IMG/VR virus record: IMGVR_UViG_3300036830_000193
Coordinates: 1 to 35,849 of that record
Source: a virus
Strand: one strand, 5' to 3'
Length of the DNA stretch: 35,849 nucleotides
In this document: positions 4,181 to 19,840 of the stretch, one piece after another
How positions within the stretch are numbered: the first letter of the stretch is position 1
Layout: the number at the start of each line of letters is the position of its first letter
Position numbers and translations under genes: made by a program
The notes under the pieces: generated by a model
Seen by the model: the letters and a program-made list of their open reading frames with translations, nothing else
The model's database searches: none
What the model was told of the DNA's origin: nothing

Positions 4181-4425
4181 CAGACCTGCGGCCTCGGCAC
4201 GTAGTGGATGCGGTCCTCCGGCGGCAGCTCACCGTCCGGGTGGTTCCAGGCGGCGCGTTTGTCGTCGTCGCTGGCCCCCTCGACGGCCAGCAACTTCCAG
4301 GGCTCGACCTCGTTGGGGCTGCCGTCGAGCTTGCGGCCGACGCCGGCCACGTAGGCGACCGCGCGCTCCGGGGCGTCGGCCTCGGCAGCGTTCTCGGGGT
4401 CGGCCTTCTTGCGGCTCACAGCCAT
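4180..4425 (-). CDS. Small hypothetical protein after the capsid gene
   Basis: An 81-residue protein starting with MAVSRKKADPENAAEAD at ATG 4425, the first gene after the capsid terminator. The body holds EPWKLLAVEGASDDDKRAAWNHPDGELP. I do not recognise the family. It is read with the next gene through a TGATG overlap. Confidence 0.6.
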   Translation of the reverse strand: MAVSRKKADPENAAEADAPERAVAYVAGVGRKLDGSPNEVEPWKLLAVEGASDDDKRAAWNHPDGELPPEDRIHYVPRPQV

Positions 4426-4447
4426 GTCGGTGTTCCTTCCGTGGACA

Positions 4448-4486
4448 GCAGAAAGGCCCCGTTCTCGGGGAGCGGGGCCTTTCTGC
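4448..4486 (-). terminator. Intrinsic terminator-like hairpin after the capsid gene
   Basis: Arms of 14 bp (GCAGAAAGGCCCCG and its exact complement, 4448-4461 and 4473-4486) enclose an 11-base loop, 15 bases after the capsid stop codon. There is no long U tract, but CCUUUCUG lies in the 3-prime arm. Such a hairpin would let capsid protein be made in excess over downstream genes. Confidence 0.75.
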
Positions 4487-4500
4487 CTTCGGGGAGCGGG

Positions 4501-5757
4501 TTACGCGTGGTGCTGGAACGCCGCGACGGCGTTCGTGTCCTGCAAGGTGGCGTCCAGGCGGGTGAAGGCCATGAACCCGATCTCCAACTGGTCCATGAAC
4601 CGCTCGTCGAACCGGACCATCTGCATGTCCCGGACCTGGCGGACCACGTACGCCCGGCGGAAGTCGCCGAACAGGATCGACTTGTTGCTGGCGCCCGGAA
4701 CCGCCATGCCCTGGTCGATGAAGTAGGGCTGGCCGTTGATCGTCGGAGCCATGCCCGGGACGGGCACCGGCACCCAGAGCGGGTGCCCCTGGGAGTCCTT
4801 GATCTTCCGGATCACCGCGAGGCTCGCATCGGCCATCATGAACCGGCAGTTCTGCCGGTAGGCCGGGTCGAGCGAGTGCTCGAGGTCGATCAGGTTGTCG
4901 TAGGTGATCGACGTGGTGTCCGCGCCGGTCACCGAGACGGTGGCGTTGGTGGCGACACCCAGCGGCTCGTTGGTGCCGGACGCCTTGACCAGGTCGGGGG
5001 CGACCTTGCGGGCGATCCGGGTGCCCAGGTGATCGGGCAGCCAGGAGTCCAGCGGGAACACCGAGTCCTGCAGCAGCTGCACCGACACCTTGGCGATACC
5101 GGAGGCGTACAGGTACGCGTTCAGGTCGTTGGTGCCGAACACGACGTCAGTCATCGTCGGGCCGGAGCCCTCGGAGACGATGGCGCCCAGGTTGGCCGTG
5201 TCGTCCACGGTCGGCCACTGCAGGTTGTTGCCGGTCGCGGTCTCGATGACCTCCGCGTAGGCCAGCAGCCCACCGAAGGCCTTCATCCGCTCGATGATGA
5301 TCACCCGGTATCCCGGCGGGATCAGGTAACCACCGGAGGTGCCGGGGCTGGTGAACTGCGCCCGGTCCTCCTGCGAGAACTTCCGCATGCCGCGCTGCAG
5401 GATCTGGCGCTCCTCGCGCTCCAAGTCCTGGCGGCCGGCGCGGACGTACTTCGAGAACGCCCGGATGTACTCCTTCTCGGCCGCCTGATCGCGCTGCTCC
5501 GAGCCCTCCTCGTCGCGCTCGTCGTCCCGGCCGGCGCCGGCGTCGATGATGTCGTTGAGGCTCGGGGTGTCGCAGTGGGCCAGCGCCTTCGACCGCTGGT
5601 GACGGGCGGCCAACGAGTTCAGGTCGGCGTTGGCCGCCTGCCAGTTGGTCTCCTCGTCGGCGGTGAGGTCGCGGTCTTCCGCCTCGGCGGTGTCCACGAT
5701 CTCTTTCATGCGGTGCCAGATCGTGTTCTGGCGTTCCATGTATTCGCGGTCGTCCAC
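4501..5757 (-). CDS. Major capsid protein (HK97 fold)
   Basis: A 418-residue HK97 gp5-family capsid protein. Residues 1-120 are charged and helical (a scaffold-like delta domain, ending near RQILQRGMRKF). The mature domain begins around residues 130-150 with TSPGTSGGYLIPPGY, the usual strand after the cleavage point. Later blocks LGVATNATVS, FMMADASLAVIRKIKD, GHPLWVP, ING-PYFIDQGMA and ILFGDFRRAYVVRQ match the A- and P-domain pattern of the family. The adjacent prohead protease probably removes the N-terminal domain. The start is ATG at 5757, and a strong hairpin follows the stop. Confidence 0.95.
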   Translation of the reverse strand: MDDREYMERQNTIWHRMKEIVDTAEAEDRDLTADEETNWQAANADLNSLAARHQRSKALAHCDTPSLNDIIDAGAGRDDERDEEGSEQRDQAAEKEYIRAFSKYVRAGRQDLEREERQILQRGMRKFSQEDRAQFTSPGTSGGYLIPPGYRVIIIERMKAFGGLLAYAEVIETATGNNLQWPTVDDTANLGAIVSEGSGPTMTDVVFGTNDLNAYLYASGIAKVSVQLLQDSVFPLDSWLPDHLGTRIARKVAPDLVKASGTNEPLGVATNATVSVTGADTTSITYDNLIDLEHSLDPAYRQNCRFMMADASLAVIRKIKDSQGHPLWVPVPVPGMAPTINGQPYFIDQGMAVPGASNKSILFGDFRRAYVVRQVRDMQMVRFDERFMDQLEIGFMAFTRLDATLQDTNAVAAFQHHA

Positions 5758-5786
5758 TTCGCGTCCCTTCAGGGCATGCCAAACGG

Positions 5787-5812
5787 CCCCGTGCGCTGCG
5801 CGCGGGGGCTGT
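5787..5812 (-). other. GC-rich hairpin between protease and capsid genes
   Basis: GGCCCCGTGCGC pairs imperfectly with GCGCGGGGGCT across a tiny loop in the 69-base gap before the capsid start. It has no U tract. It may stabilise the capsid mRNA 5-prime end or mark a processing point. Confidence 0.4.
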
Positions 5813-5826
5813 GGCGGGATGAGTGA

Positions 5827-6942
5827 CTAGGCGGCGGGCTGTTTGGCTTCGGTCATGAGCCGGTAGAGCTCACGACGTTTGCCATTCCGAGTGGACGCGG
5901 CCGGCTCGGTTTCGCCGTCTTCCTTACCTGCATCGGGCTGTTGAGTGGTCCCACCCGGCTCACCGCCCGACTTCGACTCGTCATCGTCGTCGTCGATCTC
6001 GATGTCGAACTTCTTCGCCGCCGCCTTGATCTTCGCCTTGATCGAGGCGAGCTGTTCGGCGGTGTACTTGTCCGCGTTGGATTTGACGTTGATATAGCTC
6101 CACGCGGCCTTGACGTGCTCTTTCGTGTCCAAGGGATAGCGGTGGACCCCGTCGGACTGATAGCCCGGGTCCGCGTAGTCGACGTCGCCGTAGGGCTTCT
6201 TCGGGTCATCGGCACGCACGCCGGCGCCCTGATGCGGCGCACCCAGGTCAATCACCGTTCGCGCCAGGTCCTCGTCGTAGCCCAGCGCACCGGCCAGGTC
6301 GGGGCGGTGCCGGGCGGCCCGCGCGATCGCCTCCCGGTCGCCACGGCGCAGCAGCGCCGGCACCAGCGAGTGCCGCAGCCCGGCGGTGGTTTCCTCGTAG
6401 GCCGGGAAGGTGACCGCCGAGACTTCGACCAGCTTGACCTCGCGGATGGTGCGCAGCTCGACGGTGACGCTGTGGCCGTCGGAGGTGGAGACCTGCTCCT
6501 CCGCCCAGTCGTCCTTGATGACGTGGAAGCCGAACGACATCCCGGTGATGTTCCGGTTGGCGACGTTGGCCCGGAGCGCCTCGACGTAGTACAGCCCCGA
6601 GTCCAGCGCAGAATCGGTCAGCAGGCCGCGCGCGTCCTGGCTCAGCTGCAGCGTGCCGGCGCTGACCCGGGACACGACGTAGTAACTGTCGTGGTCGATC
6701 AGCATCCGGGCGTCGCCCTCGCTGAGGGTCTTGCTGAACGTCCCGTCGACCACCTGCTCATAGAAACCCCAGGTCAGCGGGTTTCCGATGGCGGTGCGGA
6801 CGTTGAACACCGAGGCATAGCCGGTGAAGCGCTGTCCGGCCTGGCCGAAGTCTCGAATCTCGACGCCGGCGTCCGCGAAAGCCAGACCCCGGCGCTCCTC
6901 ACCACTCGGCTGGCTACGCAGCATGCCGGTTCCCTTCATCAT
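5827..6942 (-). CDS. Prohead maturation protease with C-terminal DUF6582-like domain
   Basis: A 371-residue protein. Residues 20-190 are an HK97 gp4-type (S78) protease: His84 in LIDHDSYYVVSR, Ser136 in ITGMSFGFHV, and the block LVEVSAVTFPAYEET at 171-185. Residues about 245-320 (KPYGDVDYADPG, then VKAAWSYIN and the LASIKAKIKAAAKKFDI helix) match the DUF6582-type tail found fused to phage proteases or materials-linked proteins. A poly-Asp run and a low-complexity linker follow. It should cut the capsid delta domain inside the prohead. Its ATG overlaps the portal stop (ATGA). Confidence 0.9.
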   Translation of the reverse strand: MMKGTGMLRSQPSGEERRGLAFADAGVEIRDFGQAGQRFTGYASVFNVRTAIGNPLTWGFYEQVVDGTFSKTLSEGDARMLIDHDSYYVVSRVSAGTLQLSQDARGLLTDSALDSGLYYVEALRANVANRNITGMSFGFHVIKDDWAEEQVSTSDGHSVTVELRTIREVKLVEVSAVTFPAYEETTAGLRHSLVPALLRRGDREAIARAARHRPDLAGALGYDEDLARTVIDLGAPHQGAGVRADDPKKPYGDVDYADPGYQSDGVHRYPLDTKEHVKAAWSYINVKSNADKYTAEQLASIKAKIKAAAKKFDIEIDDDDDESKSGGEPGGTTQQPDAGKEDGETEPAASTRNGKRRELYRLMTEAKQPAA

Positions 6943-8189
6943 TCTTTCGGCTGGAGCTTGTAGCCGCCGAGGATCTTGTCCGATCCCAGCGGCTGGCCGG
7001 AGTCGATTAGGGCGGGCTGTATGTAGCTGTCGCCGCCCTGGCCGTCGGGCACCGGCGGCATGTCTTCGAGGTATCTGATGTCGTTGGCGTTCAAGACGCC
7101 GGCCTCGCGCAGCACCGCGTAGTAATTGGCCCGGGCCATCGAGTCACCGCGCAGCAGCAGATTCTGGTCGTAGCGCGCCTCCTGGCCCCGGGCCAGCAGC
7201 TCCTTGGTGATCCGCTGCTCGGTCGGCGCCAACCACATCGGCCACAAGTCGAACTGGGTGAAACCCCTGGCCTGCTGCTCAAGACCGCTACCCCACGAAG
7301 TTGTCTTGTCGGTCTGCATCATCAGATACGGCGGCACCCCGAAATACCGGCCGATCTCGGAGACCTGAAAATCCCGGCTCTCCAGCAGTTGCGCCTCGTT
7401 GGAGGGCATCGTGAGGCTCTGGAACTTCGCGCCGGCGTCGATGATGGCGATCTTGTGGGCGCCGTCGTTGCCGGAGAACCGCTCGGTCCAGCGCGCCTGC
7501 AGCCGCTCGGCCTGGCCTTGGTTGAGCTTGTGGTCGGTCTGCAGCAGCCCGGAAAGCAGGTTGCCGCGCCCGAACAGGCTGGCCGAATATTTCTCCGCGC
7601 CCATCGACAGCCCGATCGCCTGGGCGGCGCACATCACCGGGGAGAGCCCGATACGGCCGTCCAGCGACAGGTGCGGCAGGTGGAAAATCTCGTTCGGGCC
7701 CATCAACGGCAACTGGTGGCCGTGATCGTCGATGATGTCGAAAACCTTGCCGGTCGGGTTGTCGTCGACCGGTTTGATGTGTTTGACCGTGACACTGCTG
7801 GCGTGGATCGGGTTGAGCCACTTGACCCGCTTGGAGTCCTGGCCGCGCACCTTCTGGGCGAAAAAGTTGCCCCACAGGCAGCGCTGCACGTAGGTGAGCC
7901 GCCAGAATTCGAGGTCGGTCATCTCCGGGTGGATGGTGCCGATGAGCGCGCTCTTGACCACCTGCTTGGTGCCGACCTTCAAAGTCTTGATCGGCAGCGC
8001 ACCGCCGAGCCCCGAAATCAGCGAGGTGGCCCGGTAGACACCGGCCATCTTCATCGAAGTCTTCTGGTTGACCACGACGCCGGCGTCGTTGGCCATCGTG
8101 GCGTACATCGCCAGAATGGTGGCCTCGTTGATCGGGACGGCCGGATCTTCGAGGTTGGCGCGCCGCTCGCGGAGCCGGAACAGGCTCAC
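6939..8189 (-). CDS. Portal protein (HK97 gp3 family)
   Basis: A 416-residue portal protein, which forms the ring through which DNA enters the head. Family blocks visible: VYRATSLISGLGGALPIKTL near residue 50, LTYVQRCLWGNFFAQKVR near 100, IFHLPHLSLDGRIGLSPV near 170, then a glycine-rich FGRGNLLSGLLQ segment and RDFQVSEIGRYFGVPPYLM near 280, the last being highly typical. The C-terminus (AGVLNANDIRYLEDMPPV) is the usual portal ending. Start is GTG at 8189, overlapping the small membrane gene stop (GTGA). Confidence 0.95.
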   Translation of the reverse strand: MSLFRLRERRANLEDPAVPINEATILAMYATMANDAGVVVNQKTSMKMAGVYRATSLISGLGGALPIKTLKVGTKQVVKSALIGTIHPEMTDLEFWRLTYVQRCLWGNFFAQKVRGQDSKRVKWLNPIHASSVTVKHIKPVDDNPTGKVFDIIDDHGHQLPLMGPNEIFHLPHLSLDGRIGLSPVMCAAQAIGLSMGAEKYSASLFGRGNLLSGLLQTDHKLNQGQAERLQARWTERFSGNDGAHKIAIIDAGAKFQSLTMPSNEAQLLESRDFQVSEIGRYFGVPPYLMMQTDKTTSWGSGLEQQARGFTQFDLWPMWLAPTEQRITKELLARGQEARYDQNLLLRGDSMARANYYAVLREAGVLNANDIRYLEDMPPVPDGQGGDSYIQPALIDSGQPLGSDKILGGYKLQPKE

Positions 8190-8376: not shown

Positions 8377-9999
8377 TCACCAGATCGACGGGCCGTCGTC
8401 GTCGTCGGCGTTGTGTCCGTGCTCGATGGCCCAGCCCCGGGCCTCCAGCGCCAGCAGCGCCGCCCAGTACGCCGAGATGGACTGCGCCCAAGACTTCTTG
8501 ACCACCCGCTGGTAGTTGTCCGACTGGCCGGCCTCGCGCTCCTCGCCAGCCGGGCGGCGCTTGCCGTTGGCCAGCGCGGCACCCAGGGCGTGTCGGGTCA
8601 GCGTCGGGTTGCCGTCGTGGCTGAACTCGCCGCCCCGGTGGGCCACCAGGAAGCGCTCGATCAGCTGGTCGACCCGCTGCTCGGAGTTGAGCCAGATTTC
8701 CAGGACCTTGCTGGTGTCCTCGTACTTGTCACCATGGTTCATGTACTGGCCCGCCCACTCGTCGACCTCGTCCTGCCAGGCGTGCGGGAAACACATCATC
8801 GACACCACGTCGAACGCCTCAAATGCGTCCGAAACGGCCTCTTTTACCTCGGATCGCGGGATTTTCCAGCCATCGGGCGCGTTTTCCGGTTTATCCCAGG
8901 TCCGCAGGTGATAGACCCGCCCATCGGCCAGCCGGCAGGCGCACAGCGAGGTGGCGTCGCGGTTCTGGGTGCCGAAAAAGCCCAAGGTGATCCGGTCGCC
9001 CTGCTCGAGCGGCTCGTCGGTCTTCTTCTGGACTTCCCACTTCAAGGCGTCGACCGCATCCCGCGAGCCGACCACGATCTCGTTGAGGTAGAAGCGCCGT
9101 GCCTCGCCGTCGCCGGTGGCCGGGTTGCGAATCTCCTCCATGATCCGTTCGATCCGGACCCAGCCGCCGTTCTCGATGGCCGAGTCGCCGTAGAGGTGCA
9201 CCAGCTCGGCGTAGAGCGCCTGGTCGTCGTCGGTGTCGATGTGGGCCCGGGGCGGCCGGTAGTTCACGTAGACGCCCGGAGCGGCGGCCTCGTGGGTGCG
9301 CTGGGCCACCGACCGCTCCGACGGATCCCAGGCGTTGGTGATCTCGGTCCAGCGGCCGTCCATGCCGGCCAGACCACGCTTCATGGTCCGCGCCATCGCC
9401 ACGCCACCGGACGTCTCGGTGTACAGGCCCGACTCGGTGAAGGTAGCGTAGGTGATCCGCTGGCCCAGCCGGGAGCGGGCCGCCGCCGTGACCGGCTCGA
9501 TCTTTCCACCGCCGGGCAAGTTGACCCGGGTCAGGCCGACGTCCAGGCCCGGGATGTTCACCGCCGGGCCCTCGGTCAGCATCGTGTAGATCAGGTCGTA
9601 GGTGTTGGCGACCTGGTCCTCCGAGTTGGCCGCGCACTGCACATGCGGGGTCGGCATCGGGGCGCCCACCGGCTCGCCGTTGGCGTCCCAGCCGGCGAAA
9701 CGCACATCGGCCAGGGCCTGCGCACAGGCATCGGCCGCCGCCAGCGGGTCCTTGCCCCACTTCTGCGGCCGCACCAACATCGAGCCGTAGTACTCGAACG
9801 CCTGCGAGCCCATGGGCGCCGTGGCATGCGGTTTGAGCCGGTAGGTGTTCAAGAAATGCCGGTACTGCTCATCGGTGAGGGTGAGCCGCTCACCCCGGCG
9901 CTCGCGGTCCGGGACGATCAGCCAGTTCTCGATCCACTCGGCCACGATGTGGCCGAGGGTCGGGAACTCTCCGGGGACCTCGGCGCCGCGCCAGGGCAT
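8377..9999 (-). CDS. terL: Terminase large subunit
   Basis: A 540-residue packaging motor. The order of blocks fits actinophage large terminases: the ATPase adenine/Walker A region MLVRPQKWGKDPLAAA (74-89), the coupling segment SEDQVANTYDLI, GLDVGLTRVNLPGGG, a Walker B-like YATFTESGLYT (184-194), the TNAWDPSERSVAQ segment, then a nuclease domain starting LGFFGTQNRDAT (339-350) and ending SHDGNPTLTRHALGAAL. Some expected acidic residues are replaced (Asp before Glu in Walker B is Thr188; the first nuclease Asp is Phe342; a later CDP-type Asp is Phe404). Start ATG overlaps the preceding zinc-finger gene (TAATG). Confidence 0.92.
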   Translation of the reverse strand: MPWRGAEVPGEFPTLGHIVAEWIENWLIVPDRERRGERLTLTDEQYRHFLNTYRLKPHATAPMGSQAFEYYGSMLVRPQKWGKDPLAAADACAQALADVRFAGWDANGEPVGAPMPTPHVQCAANSEDQVANTYDLIYTMLTEGPAVNIPGLDVGLTRVNLPGGGKIEPVTAAARSRLGQRITYATFTESGLYTETSGGVAMARTMKRGLAGMDGRWTEITNAWDPSERSVAQRTHEAAAPGVYVNYRPPRAHIDTDDDQALYAELVHLYGDSAIENGGWVRIERIMEEIRNPATGDGEARRFYLNEIVVGSRDAVDALKWEVQKKTDEPLEQGDRITLGFFGTQNRDATSLCACRLADGRVYHLRTWDKPENAPDGWKIPRSEVKEAVSDAFEAFDVVSMMCFPHAWQDEVDEWAGQYMNHGDKYEDTSKVLEIWLNSEQRVDQLIERFLVAHRGGEFSHDGNPTLTRHALGAALANGKRRPAGEEREAGQSDNYQRVVKKSWAQSISAYWAALLALEARGWAIEHGHNADDDDGPSIW

Positions 10000-14095: not shown

Positions 14096-14205
14096 TCCTG
14101 TGGCCATGCCATGGATGTAGCGACAGGCTCCCGCTAGACCAACTATTCGGCGCCGATACGTGGACACCGCTGTGCTCCGCATGTGTCGCCGAGATGGAAG
14201 ACTGA
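14053..14205 (+). CDS. 50-residue chimeric zinc-binding protein
   Basis: ATG at 14053 (AAAGGA upstream) encodes 50 residues. Residues 1-14 are identical to the N-terminus of the sliding clamp, because this stretch lies in the 124-bp repeat. Residues 18-50 carry two Cys pairs, PCHGC and LCSAC, separated by about 22 residues, a small zinc-ribbon pattern, ending in acidic EMED. It seems to be a small gene inserted at the clamp start, gaining its start signals from the duplication. Function unknown; a terminator-like hairpin follows. Confidence 0.65.
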   Translation: MTVTISTVNTENASVLWPCHGCSDRLPLDQLFGADTWTPLCSACVAEMED

Positions 14206-14211
14206 GCCGAA

Positions 14212-14229
14212 ACACCCCTTTCGGGGTGT
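14212..14229 (+). terminator. Hairpin after the chimeric zinc gene
   Basis: ACACCCC-TTTC-GGGGTGT, a 7-bp perfect stem with a 4-base loop, starts six bases after the stop codon. No U tract follows, so it may only partly stop transcription into the clamp gene. Confidence 0.6.
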
Positions 14230-14279
14230 CTGTCAGGTAGCCCCCTGGCACCGATGAGGCAGGCATATCCACTTATCCG

Positions 14280-16219: not shown

Positions 16220-17038
16220 ATGATTCGCGCCATTTGGACCGGCACCATCAGCTACGGGCTGTTCAGCGTCCGGGTCAAGCTGCACCCCGCCACCCAGGAT
16301 CACGGAACCGAGCTGCACCGCACCCATGAGGGCTGTCTGCTGGGCAGCTACAGCGACGCCGGCCACCGGCTGAGCCAAGTCATGGTCTGTAAAGACTGCG
16401 GCGAGCCGGTGCCGTACGCGGAGCAGGGCAACGTGTTCGTCGACGCCGACGGCACCACGCACCCGTTGAGCCGCGACGACATGGCCAGTCTGCCGGCCGA
16501 CAAGTCGCGGTCGCTGGATCTGGTTGAGTTCGTAGACGCCAGCGAGATTGACCCGCTGCGCCTGGCCGCCACGTATTTCATTCGGCCCGACTACCAGAAC
16601 ACGGGCCGCAAAAACCCGAAACCCAACGAGGGCTATCCGGTGCTGGTGGCGGCGCTCGAAAAGTCGGGCCGGGCGGCCATCGGGCGGATGGTGATGCGCT
16701 CGCGTGAACACCTGGTCGCGGTACTACCGCACGACGGTGGCCTGATCGCTCGCGTGGTTCTGTGGGCCGACCAGTTGCGCGCACCGGCGTTCGACGAGCC
16801 GGTCAACCCGCCGGTGGTGGAGCTCTCCACCGAGCACGTTGACCAGGCTGTCGCGCTGATCGATGCACTCAGCGTGCCGTTCGACGCGGGCCGCCATGAG
16901 GATCGGCGCGAAGCCGCGCTAACCGCCCTCATCGCGTCCAAGCGACCCCAACCGGTCCCGGTCGAGGTTGCGGGTGCGACCGCGCAGATTCTGGACCTCA
17001 CAGCCAAGCTGAACGTGCGTGCGGCCGTGGCCGGATAG
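16220..17038 (+). CDS. ku: Ku protein (non-homologous end joining)
   Basis: A 272-residue bacterial-type Ku. The N-terminus IRAIWTGTISYGLFSVRVKLH and the blocks ELHRTHEGCLLGSY, SRSLDLVEFVDASEIDPL, TYFIRPDY, YPVLVAALEKSGRAAIGRMVMRSREHLVAVLP and LIARVVLWADQLR follow the Ku core fold. Start ATG 16220 with GGAAGGG upstream fits the family N-terminus; an upstream extension to 16112 does not. Ku dimers ring DNA ends and recruit ligase D. A small insert with Cys-x2-Cys (CKDCGEPVP) is present near residue 57. Mycobacteriophages Omega and Corndog are known to carry Ku, thought to help close genome ends with a host ligase. Confidence 0.92.
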   Translation: MIRAIWTGTISYGLFSVRVKLHPATQDHGTELHRTHEGCLLGSYSDAGHRLSQVMVCKDCGEPVPYAEQGNVFVDADGTTHPLSRDDMASLPADKSRSLDLVEFVDASEIDPLRLAATYFIRPDYQNTGRKNPKPNEGYPVLVAALEKSGRAAIGRMVMRSREHLVAVLPHDGGLIARVVLWADQLRAPAFDEPVNPPVVELSTEHVDQAVALIDALSVPFDAGRHEDRREAALTALIASKRPQPVPVEVAGATAQILDLTAKLNVRAAVAG

Positions 17039-17402: not shown

Positions 17403-17526
17403 CCCACCAGGTGCGGGCGTTGTGCCACCAGGACTGCTCCCGGCGCAACCGGGCCAGCACTTCGGCCCGCAGCAGGCAGTGAGCGCACTGGCATCCCCGC
17501 CAGTGCGCTCTACCGCGTCTGGGCAT
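17386..17526 (-). CDS. 46-residue Cys/Trp/Arg-rich protein downstream of the protease
   Basis: ATG at 17526, four bases after the sedolisin stop, opens 46 codons with good third-position GC. It contains CQCAHC near residue 12 and a basic aromatic tail (SWWHNARTWWARRRF). The gene overlaps the end of the converging HTH gene by 17 bases and contains a perfect hairpin. It may be a small metal-binding or membrane-active peptide; no family recognised. Confidence 0.45.
   Translation of the reverse strand: MPRRGRAHWRGCQCAHCLLRAEVLARLRREQSWWHNARTWWARRRF
17481..17510. terminator. Bidirectional hairpin between converging genes
   Basis: GAGCGCACTGGC and GCCAGTGCGCTC are a perfect 12-bp inverted repeat with a 6-base loop, between the HTH gene and the sedolisin gene. 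No U tract on either strand. It would lie within the 46-residue gene if that gene is real. Confidence 0.65.
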
Positions 17527-17529
17527 CGA

Positions 17530-18666
17530 TCAGTTGAACCCGTGCTCGGTCAGCCACGCGGCGCTGACCGTGGCCAGCTGCTTGAGCAGGGCCGCCAGCG
17601 CGACGTCAGCCGGGTCGGTGTCGACGCCCCCGGCCGGTGGGGTGGTGACCGGCGGCGGGGACGCCACGGTGCCGCTCAGCACGGCGTACAGCTTGCCGAA
17701 GTCGACCACGCCCCACCCGGACACGTCATCCTTGCCGGGGCCGGCCTTGTAGCCCCCGTTGTTGCCGACCGTCACGTCGAAGCAGATGCTCGGATTCGCC
17801 GCGATCGTGGCCAGCAGGTCGAACGGCCGGCCCAACAACTGGATCAGCACGGCGCACATGCCGGCGTACAGCGGGGCGACCGCGCTGGTCCCGCCGATCA
17901 CCCCAGACTGCCCGTCCACCACCACTTTGTACCCGGTAACCGGGTCGGCGTTGCCGGCTACGTCCGGCACGGTGCGGCCCGGGAAGAAGCCGGACACACC
18001 GCCACCGGTGGCGTCGTTGGTCGGATTGTCATTCCACACCACCTCGGACGCGCGGCTCCCGGACGCGTCGAGCACCAGTCGGGTACCCCCACAACCCACA
18101 ACGCTCGGGTCCGACGCCGGGTAGTCGGCCACGTTCTGACGGGTGCCGTCACGCGATCCGGCGTCACCGGAGGCGGCGAACACGGTGACACCCTTGGCCT
18201 TGGCGGCGGCGAACGCGGCGGCGAACGCCTTGACGGTCGACGGCGACCAGGACGACTCGGGGCCGCCCCAGCTGATGGTAATGACCTGGCAGCCGTCGCC
18301 GACCGCCTGGTTGATCGCCGCCAAGAACCCGGCATCGGTGTTGGGGCTGAAATACACCCGCTGTTTGGCGCCCGGCGCCACCAGGCCGATCACCTCGACG
18401 TCCAGGGCGACCTCGCCGTCGGCGCCGTCCGGGCCGTCCGACTGCGGCGAGCCCCCGGCCACGCCGACGACGGTGACCGTGGTCGGGTCGAGCCCCATCG
18501 CGGTCAGGTCGGCCGCATTGAGGCCACCGCCCAGCTCGATCACCCCGACGGTCACACCGGCGCCGGTGGCCGAGTCGACCGGGCAGCCGTAGGCCCGGGC
18601 CACGTCGCGGGCCGAGTAGCCCGACGCGGCGGCGTGCGGCCGTCGCAGGTAGGTGTTCCGGCTCAT
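17530..18666 (-). CDS. Sedolisin (S53) serine-carboxyl protease, catalytic domain only
   Basis: A 378-residue protein, start ATG 18666 with AGGAG five bases upstream. It carries the whole sedolisin/kumamolisin set: Glu85-x3-Asp89 (GEVALDVEV), the SWGGPE strand (132-137), oxyanion Asp168 (AASGDAGS), catalytic Ser261 (GGTSAVAP), and a calcium-site ending (FDVTVGNNGGYKAGPG, then DVSGWGVVDF). Sedolisins normally have a large N-terminal propeptide and a signal peptide; neither is present. A Pro-rich linker (335-350) leads to a helical tail. It should cut proteins, best at acid pH. It has its own transcription unit behind two terminators. Target unknown: host wall proteins, virion processing or lysis are options. 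Confidence 0.9.
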   Translation of the reverse strand: MSRNTYLRRPHAAASGYSARDVARAYGCPVDSATGAGVTVGVIELGGGLNAADLTAMGLDPTTVTVVGVAGGSPQSDGPDGADGEVALDVEVIGLVAPGAKQRVYFSPNTDAGFLAAINQAVGDGCQVITISWGGPESSWSPSTVKAFAAAFAAAKAKGVTVFAASGDAGSRDGTRQNVADYPASDPSVVGCGGTRLVLDASGSRASEVVWNDNPTNDATGGGVSGFFPGRTVPDVAGNADPVTGYKVVVDGQSGVIGGTSAVAPLYAGMCAVLIQLLGRPFDLLATIAANPSICFDVTVGNNGGYKAGPGKDDVSGWGVVDFGKLYAVLSGTVASPPPVTTPPAGGVDTDPADVALAALLKQLATVSAAWLTEHGFN

Positions 18667-18687
18667 GTCATCTCCTGGGGAAGCGGG

Positions 18688-18754: not shown

Positions 18755-18786
18755 AAAAAACCCCGGACGACTCGACTCGCCCGGGG
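18755..18786 (-). terminator. Intrinsic terminator, second of a tandem pair
   Basis: On the minus strand CCCCGG pairs with CCGGGG across a 14-base loop, followed at once by six U residues (18760-18755). Confidence 0.85.
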
Positions 18787-18827
18787 CAAAAAGAAACGCC
18801 CGAACCGGGGGATAACAGGTTCGGGCG
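18787..18827 (-). terminator. Intrinsic terminator, first of a tandem pair
   Basis: CGCCCGAACC and GGTTCGGGCG (10-bp perfect stem, 11-base loop) are followed on the minus strand by UUUCUUUUUG. Together with the next hairpin it closes the early operon and isolates the protease gene. Confidence 0.9.
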
Positions 18828-18875: not shown

Positions 18876-19067
18876 CTAACCGGCGTCGTGAATGATGCGC
18901 ACCTCGCCGTGCTCGCGGATCAGGTCCTCCCAGGGCAGCCCCGGGAACGGGTCACCGATCAGCCGCCAGAGATGACCTTGGCGCTGCCAGACATCCCCGT
19001 CGGAGTCCAGCAACGCCGACCCGTCGGCCGGCTGGCGCGGCACCCAATGGAAGCCCTCCACGCTCAC
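18876..19067 (-). CDS. 63-residue hypothetical protein, last gene of the early operon
   Basis: Starts with GTG at 19067 overlapping the upstream stop (GTGA). The sequence is rich in Trp and Asp: EGFHWVPRQPADGSALLDSDGDVWQRQGHLWRLIGD, then EDLIREHGEVRIIHDAG. It looks like a small beta-domain protein. No family recognised. Two terminators follow about 50 bases downstream. Confidence 0.7.
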   Translation of the reverse strand: MSVEGFHWVPRQPADGSALLDSDGDVWQRQGHLWRLIGDPFPGLPWEDLIREHGEVRIIHDAG

Positions 19068-19840
19068 GGCGTGACCACCTCGCTGATTAGATTGAGCACA
19101 TCCCCCACCCGGTAGAGCGGCTCACGGGGCCGGTCCGGGTGTGGCGGGTGCGGGGTCAGTTTCCCCCGGTGCGCCAACCCTCGGATCATCGAGGCGGTCA
19201 GCTCTGTCTTCAACAGGCCCGGCAGCGCCCGCGACATCTCGGCGGCCGTCAACAGCTGGTCTTCGGCGGCCTCCAGGAGCCAACGCCTGCGGACCTCCAC
19301 CTCGTAAACGGCCGCGCACTGCCGGCACGACACGTCGCTGGCCTTCGGGTGCGCGTACAGGTCGGCGGTGCACTCGTCGCACGGGCCGGCGTAAACCAGT
19401 TGCAGCGGCTTGTCCACCGCCCGCTGACCCTGGATCACGCAGTAGCCGACCTCATCGGCTAGGTCCCCGGCGTACCCGGCGACCTGGATCTGGTCCAGGT
19501 AGGCGAGCAGGCATTGCGCCGCCGCCAGCGCACGAACCGGGGCCGGCCCGGCAAACAGGCCGGTCGCGCCCACCAGCCGGTGCGCCCAGTGGGCCAGCGT
19601 GTCGGCCAGCTTGTCCCGGGCCCGCATGGGGCCCAGCCGCAGCGGCAGCGGCCGCTCGGTGGACCGTCCGTCCGAATCCCCGATGTGGTCGAGCCGCATG
19701 ATCGTGACATCCAAGTCGTCGAGCAGTGCCCGGACCGCCCACAGGTCGCGCCGCAGCAGCCGCAGGCAGGTGGCGCAGAGGAAGCCGGCGCGTGTCGGGC
19801 GATCACAGGCCGGCGCCAGGCAGATCGAGGTGTTGCTGAT
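19064..19840 (-). CDS. Zinc-ribbon and winged-helix DNA-binding protein, apparent ATC start
   Basis: The reading frame has a 5-prime zinc motif (CLAPAC, then FLCATC) with no ATG, GTG or TTG before it after the in-frame TAA at 19864-19862. GGAGG stands five bases before an ATC at 19840, the likely start, giving 258 residues. The first conventional start, TTG at 19714, would remove the zinc motif. A second zinc ribbon lies in the middle (CDECTADLY...CRQC), and the C-terminal part (LLTAAEMSRALP, ASMIRGLAHRGKLTPH, LYRVGDVLNLI) fits a winged helix-turn-helix. It resembles actinophage zinc/HTH proteins of the early region and may regulate transcription or bind replication DNA. Confidence 0.75.
   Translation of the reverse strand: MSNTSICLAPACDRPTRAGFLCATCLRLLRRDLWAVRALLDDLDVTIMRLDHIGDSDGRSTERPLPLRLGPMRARDKLADTLAHWAHRLVGATGLFAGPAPVRALAAAQCLLAYLDQIQVAGYAGDLADEVGYCVIQGQRAVDKPLQLVYAGPCDECTADLYAHPKASDVSCRQCAAVYEVEVRRRWLLEAAEDQLLTAAEMSRALPGLLKTELTASMIRGLAHRGKLTPHPPHPDRPREPLYRVGDVLNLISEVVTP

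Follow-up and report, generated by a model that had tools for sequence, protein, structure and literature searches.

A predicted kumamolisin-type sedolisin without a prodomain in a tailed phage, and its propeptide-less relatives in uncultivated viruses

The large prodomain of sedolisins, which subtilisins also have, is thought to be needed for both folding and restraint. How is a phage gene to be read that encodes a sedolisin active site and nothing resembling this prodomain, and what might its product do? The gene in question (17530..18666, minus strand; 378 amino acids, by homology, structural model and gene call) lies in a 35,849-base IMG/VR virus record, which was analysed over its whole length and is referred to here as the window. 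A sequence-only reading had taken it for a sedolisin carried by a phage, complete in its active site but without a propeptide, and alignments and profile searches support that description. Beyond it, the missing propeptide is common to nearly all of the phage sedolisins that we found, and in the nearest relatives the gene occupies a position in the lysis region.

Among solved structures, kumamolisin 1gt9 matches the window sedolisin at 3e-74 (phmmer), mature residue 1 of 1gt9 pairing with query residue 12, and the mature kumamolisin domain is 53% identical to it; the general S8 model of Pfam also matches. The catalytic domain spans residues 17–331 (17674..18618, minus strand, like all features of this gene), as judged by the kumamolisin match, alignment and structure comparison. 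By alignment, the predicted S53 triad consists of Glu85 (18412..18414), which is invariant in all phage members, Asp89 (18400..18402) and the nucleophile Ser261 (17884..17886; GGTSAVAP), in DGEVxLDxEV and GGTSAxxP contexts. The oxyanion residue would be Asp168 (18163..18165), equivalent to kumamolisin D164, and a C-terminal segment (17728..17778) places D297, V298, G309, G311 and D313 of the predicted calcium site in register with kumamolisin. The triad, oxyanion Asp and calcium-site residues are thus intact, as had been proposed. The AlphaFold2 model (mean pLDDT 90, pTM 0.85) has a subtilisin-like fold (TM 0.81/0.85 and rmsd 1.8 Å against 1gt9), with residues 1–10 at low confidence (pLDDT 56). 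The window, L002–L005, L033 and L113 all lack about 20 residues before GR-VPD. The catalytic domain is followed by a Pro-rich linker (residues 332–350) and a C-terminal helix (352–374; together 17545..17673, alignment and model), and the computed pI is 4.45. These comparisons show a genuine phage gene for what is predicted to be a kumamolisin-type S53 endopeptidase, in which the catalytic and calcium-site residues are complete and a prodomain is lacking. The PF09286 prodomain is usual in the S53 family, though it is no catalytic criterion; because it is lacking here, we regard the protein as a variant and not as a standard sedolisin.

The window carries a tailed-phage head module on its minus strand, including TerL (8377-9999), portal (6939-8189), a dedicated head maturation protease (5827..6942, from the head-module annotation) and major capsid (4501-5757), together with major tail proteins. 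Relatives of its TerL are mostly from phages of Actinomycetota, with identity below 60% throughout. A second IMG/VR contig of 68,738 bp (G033, locus L113) has a 127-bp direct terminal repeat, which marks it as an apparently complete genome. Its synteny with the window takes in TerL (68%), capsid (63%) and portal (58%), and Ku, the clamp loader, phrog_908 and tail proteins are also common to both. Judged against G033, the window covers roughly half of a genome; it stops in the tail genes and lacks the lysis region. Two of the shared genes anchor the sedolisin to phage DNA: that for the phrog_908 protein (19064..19699, minus strand; 49.5% to the G033 homologue, by homology) and a Ku homologue (16220..17038, plus strand; 43% to G033, by Pfam-type match and synteny). 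In the interval between them, where the window has its sedolisin, G033 has unrelated small ORFs. A type II hammerhead ribozyme (14205-14268, plus strand; Rfam, 43.8 bits) lies elsewhere in the window, between clamp-loader and sliding-clamp-like genes.

The sequence-only reading had itself raised the prospect of bacterial DNA joined by misassembly, whereby a truncated host sedolisin was captured or joined in error, and the identity of roughly 50–60% between the window sedolisin and bacterial enzymes would be in keeping with this. We find it scarcely credible. The genes on both sides are syntenic with a complete phage; the gene has its own ribosome-binding site, a Shine-Dalgarno AGGAG (18672..18676, minus strand, from the sequence) 5 nt before the ATG; its GC3 of 0.92 matches the phage; and no sizeable repeats were found at its boundaries in the window. 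Independent phage contigs carry a sedolisin at 69%, among them G033, whose single copy (45,377-46,516) is 69–70% identical, and the window sedolisin is not nested among bacterial genes. Misassembly is an unlikely source of the gene. A further relative, L033, from a MAG binned as 'Nocardioides', has about 80–91% DNA identity to L113 in matching stretches, and dN/dS between their sedolisins is 0.13, indicating purifying selection.

The position of the mature N-terminus is preceded by only 11 residues. The PF09286 propeptide profile has no match anywhere in the window, and a custom HMM of 77 bacterial proregions has none in its six frames, that is, on both strands. The custom HMM recovered its positive controls, L034 and L079 from within the training set and L036 from outside it, at 1e-30 to 1e-38. 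A PF09286 search of the sister genome G033, complete at 68.7 kb, was negative too. The reported lack of a propeptide is therefore upheld, and a propeptide encoded elsewhere, which the earlier reading had allowed for, was found neither in the contig by either profile nor in G033 by PF09286. A longer N-terminus from an alternative start was considered and rejected: the upstream start codons that could serve fall within the terminator region or close to it, a reading frame extended to them would meet or cross a terminator, and it is the ATG that has a Shine-Dalgarno sequence. The N-terminus shows no hydrophobic signal sequence, which agrees with the earlier claim; its absence is not diagnostic, however, since Frankia homologues with full prodomains show none by eye either.

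Upstream of the gene there are tandem minus-strand hairpins with a U-run after each (fold z -4.0). T2 (18797..18827, by folding) is followed by UUUCUUUUU; T1 (18760..18787, by folding and scan) is an intrinsic terminator with stem and U-run that would be expected to stop transcription of the upstream minus-strand genes. The terminator scan picked up one of the two hairpins, its count being not above shuffle expectation, and a sigma-70 promoter scan found none. Because the two hairpins divide the sedolisin from the upstream gene, it looks like its own unit, in line with the sequence-only reading. Just past the stop, between convergent genes, the sequence contains a strong GC-rich inverted repeat, GAGCGCACTGGC..GCCAGTGCGCTC (17483-17512).

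Sedolisins had been said to be uncommon in phages, and an S53 search of phage sequences had been proposed. Alignment-based scans of IMG/VR yielded, besides the window, 58 distinct contigs with an S53 gene, and the prodomain is missing in 56 of them: only L007 passed PF09286, and the custom HMM matched L006 and L007 only. By tblastn, three phage sedolisins found no match among 50,697 isolate phage records, whereas a TerL control gave 1986. The S53-like matches among viral predicted structures in BFVD come from giant viruses, with no clear tailed-phage S53 there, and no phage S53 study was found in the open-access literature; a Cedratvirus 'sedolisin' reported in the literature is a protein of the amoeba host and was set aside as not relevant. 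Rarity thus holds for isolates, with none in 50,697 records, but not for uncultivated viruses, 58 contigs of which carry such a gene. Absence from the isolate records is why the class escaped notice.

Bacterial homologues on genome contigs have 150–200 or more in-frame upstream residues in nearly all cases, and the short form was represented among 396 Actinomycetota genomes by the phage-like L033 only. Supply of the propeptide in trans was also considered and rejected: PF09286 over whole records and the custom HMM over the loci were negative, except for the in-frame domains of L006 and L007, and no conserved small gene recurs widely beside phage sedolisins. Every aligned phage sedolisin keeps the E, D, D and S residues, and all but one keep W133; the calcium site is lost in a minority. 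Altered calcium-site residues with intact catalytic residues are seen in L023, L032, L126, L129, L135, L143 and L145. Across the broad set of phage sedolisins found, these profile searches show apparent prodomain loss to be the rule and not an oddity.

In the tree (FastTree supports), a split with support 0.98 keeps the propeptide-less phage sedolisins apart from bacterial kumamolisin-type genes, among which none of them nests; a distant bacterial outgroup falls on the phage side of this split, so rooting is uncertain and the phage forms are not established as a single clade. The propeptide-bearing L006 and L007 group with Frankia (support 0.99 and 0.56 respectively). One or a few ancient prodomain losses would fit these relationships best, the root being unsure. 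L006 (5677-7347) has a reduced, divergent prodomain of about 108 amino acids (custom HMM 3e-13, PF09286 negative), and could possibly represent an intermediate of prodomain loss. Other members depart from the common form in different ways. The L030 sedolisin (4399-6816) is split inside ISWG|SPEDQW by an apparent intein of about 375 amino acids (Cys start, GN|S end) with a weak PDB match to the NrdHF intein (E 0.0037). L026 (5986-7779) and L027 (5977-7668) have C-terminal extensions of 220–260 amino acids and stand next to a holin-like gene, and propeptide-less sedolisins also occur on two very large contigs classed as viral, L011 (447,763-bp) and L014 (391,957-bp), which may be jumbo phages or misclassified.

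In place of a propeptide of about 150–200 amino acids, the window sedolisin has, by alignment, a short N-terminal extension only, residues 1–16, MSRNTYLRRPHAAASG (18619..18666, minus strand). Within it a motif scan places YLRRP (residues 6–10; 18637..18651, minus strand) in a conserved phage N-terminal motif. Most phage sedolisins have an N-terminus of about 15–30 residues bearing this motif instead of a propeptide, with the pattern M-few-[RHS]-[PSAT]-[YFH]-[ILFY]-[KR]-..., as in RPYFKHARF, HPYIKKPR and TYLRRPHAA. Of 51 phage sequences 42 carry it, where shuffles gave a mean of 13.4 and a maximum of 23; the contrast is somewhat optimistic because the motif was refined on the same 51 sequences. 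Bacterial prodomains, and likewise the pro-kumamolisin chain 1t1e, end in ...GLDNRPQARPHFR-linker-YTP, and the phage motif resembles the RPHFR linker that closes them. The first cut in pro-kumamolisin falls within RPHF. On the simplest reading, the phage forms would have lost the globular prodomain and retained the activation linker. A precedent is offered by intracellular subtilisins, whose prodomain is replaced by a 16–20-residue extension that blocks the active site (PMC6220982), and some subtilases fold without a propeptide upon calcium binding (PMC10580911).

Gene neighbourhoods were called with a simple codon-usage script, and annotation of the neighbours is partial. In L003 minor tail genes are followed by the sedolisin, LysA (phrog_700, with stop/start overlap) and a LysB-like phrog_102 gene; in L002 the order is tail, sedolisin, a 114-aa protein and endolysin; in L033 a protein with a C-terminal holin (phrog_443) begins 3 nt downstream; and in L005 the endolysin is upstream. 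The G033 sedolisin is preceded by tail genes and by a set of membrane and envelope-type proteins, and is directly followed by a 369-aa protein that is amidase-endolysin-like by sequence and then by a 42-aa membrane protein, so that its position in the lysis region differs from the phrog_908/Ku interval occupied in the window. Endolysin or holin genes are likewise among the neighbours in the more distant relatives L119, L133 and L026. Placement in a lysis cluster is thus seen in L002, L003, L033, L113, L005, L119, L133 and L026; it is absent in the window contig, which ends before the lysis region. Pfam families among the neighbours of phage sedolisins include holins, Amidase_2, M15, M23, CHAP, GH19, GH25 and GH108, and small membrane proteins make up 27% within four genes of the sedolisin versus 14% further away (Fisher p 5e-5). 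Many other phage members, in groups B and C, adjoin genes without lysis annotation. Two Pfam Sortase matches occur among upstream neighbours, and from sequence we assign them to probable sortase-domain proteins just upstream of the sedolisin in L033 (4715-5323) and L113 (5027-5500).

Because the nearest relatives have the sedolisin between tail genes and endolysin or holin, we favour, tentatively and at a little less than an even chance, a late protease of the lysis module. It would be made directly in the cytoplasm late in infection, fold without a prodomain, as some calcium-driven subtilases do, and stay quiet at neutral cytoplasmic pH, since Glu/Asp acid chemistry needs low pH. The short linker remnant (YLRRP, RPYFK or HPYIK) may lie across the active cleft, by analogy with the extension of intracellular subtilisins. 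Once the holin opened the membrane, sedolisin and endolysin would gain access to surroundings of lower pH, the cell envelope or the medium outside, where the sedolisin would cleave envelope-anchored or debris protein and aid escape of the progeny. The window phage would have the same gene elsewhere than in the lysis region, transcribed as a separate unit. We count for this account the invariant catalytic residues, the dN/dS of 0.13, the prodomain loss, the lysis neighbours, the presence of a separate head protease and the precedents of intracellular subtilisins and of calcium-induced folding; against it we count the position of the window gene between phrog_908 and Ku, not in a lysis cassette, the many group B and C members without lysis-annotated neighbours and, for the proposed docking of the motif, the low model confidence of residues 1–10. 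A bolder version, possible though doubtful, would recognize in phages a class of 'intracellular sedolisin' in which the prodomain was lost anciently and an RPHFR-like linker serves as a minimal self-inhibitor; peptide and neutral pH would together hold the enzyme off, and holin-triggered access to an acidic envelope would switch it on, making it a pH-gated lysis protease.

The main rival, which we rate as rather unlikely, is a virion-associated protease that is borne on the tail and digests cell-surface proteins at adsorption or penetration, the C-terminal linker and helix serving for attachment to the virion. Gene order points both ways: the sedolisin follows tail genes in L002, L003, L113 and L033, and a tail-sheath-like gene is among the neighbours of L032 and L131, but the L003 sedolisin overlaps LysA and not a tail gene, and that of the window is far from tail genes. 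Pro-rich linkers and variable C-terminal tails do occur in many members, but no tail is common to the groups, and many group C members have almost none. An acid optimum, by analogy, would fit an extracellular site. It counts, conversely, against a regulatory or host-takeover protease that degrades host or phage proteins in the cytoplasm in the manner of intracellular subtilisins, since Glu-Asp-Ser chemistry is characteristically acid-active. Such a role seems improbable to us, given also the tail and lysis regions in which relatives have the gene and the existence of a dedicated head protease, although the lack of export signal and prodomain, the N-terminal extension, short like that of intracellular subtilisins (PMC6220982), and the location of the window gene as its own unit on the DNA-metabolism side would all suit it.

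A prohead-protease role was rejected, as the head module has its own maturation protease and the sedolisin is not needed for this purpose. We also think it quite improbable that the gene is a dispensable accessory, a moron or auxiliary metabolic gene whose product, freed at lysis, would act outside the cell as a protease on proteins of the environment or toxins of competitors. Its own terminators, its different position in the window and G033 and its scatter over unrelated phages and contexts would agree with this, but selection is strongly purifying, and the propeptide-free forms make up phage branches apart from bacterial genes.

The lysis and entry enzymes known from phages mostly attack sugars, peptidoglycan and lipids, and a phage sedolisin would add a true protease to them under either reading. 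The purpose of the prodomain can also be probed through a natural experiment, since a widespread set of phage enzymes does without it. Acid proteases that lack a prodomain might find practical use as well; kumamolisin serves as a scaffold for enzymes that degrade gluten.

Of the known systems, kumamolisin and kumamolisin-As (MEROPS S53; 1gt9, 1t1e, 1sio) are like the window sedolisin in triad, oxyanion Asp and calcium site; the window sedolisin differs in the lack of a prodomain, the loss, with its group, of the loop of about 20 residues before GR-VPD, and the extra Pro-linker and C-terminal helix. The Frankia sedolisins L034 and L079, on genome contigs, are about 55% identical to it and share the absence of an obvious signal peptide and a similar Pro-rich linker and C-terminal tail, but they have a complete prodomain (HMM about 1e-37) and bacterial context, and do not belong to the phage groups that lack the propeptide. 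Giant-virus sedolisins (Homavirus, Barrevirus, Terrestrivirus and Sylvanvirus) are the best S53-like matches in BFVD; they belong to viruses of eukaryotes and, at 521–972 amino acids, are not of the short phage form. Phage subtilases (phrog_3677 and others, S8) belong to the same fold clan, but show weak similarity only and have another catalytic triad. Intracellular subtilisins (ISP, S8; PMC6220982) resemble the phage forms in having an extension of 16–20 residues (16 in the window) for a prodomain, a short conserved motif and no export signal; they differ in being alkaline enzymes of the His/Asp/Ser family with an unrelated motif, and inhibition by the extension, shown in ISP, is only proposed for the phage sedolisins.
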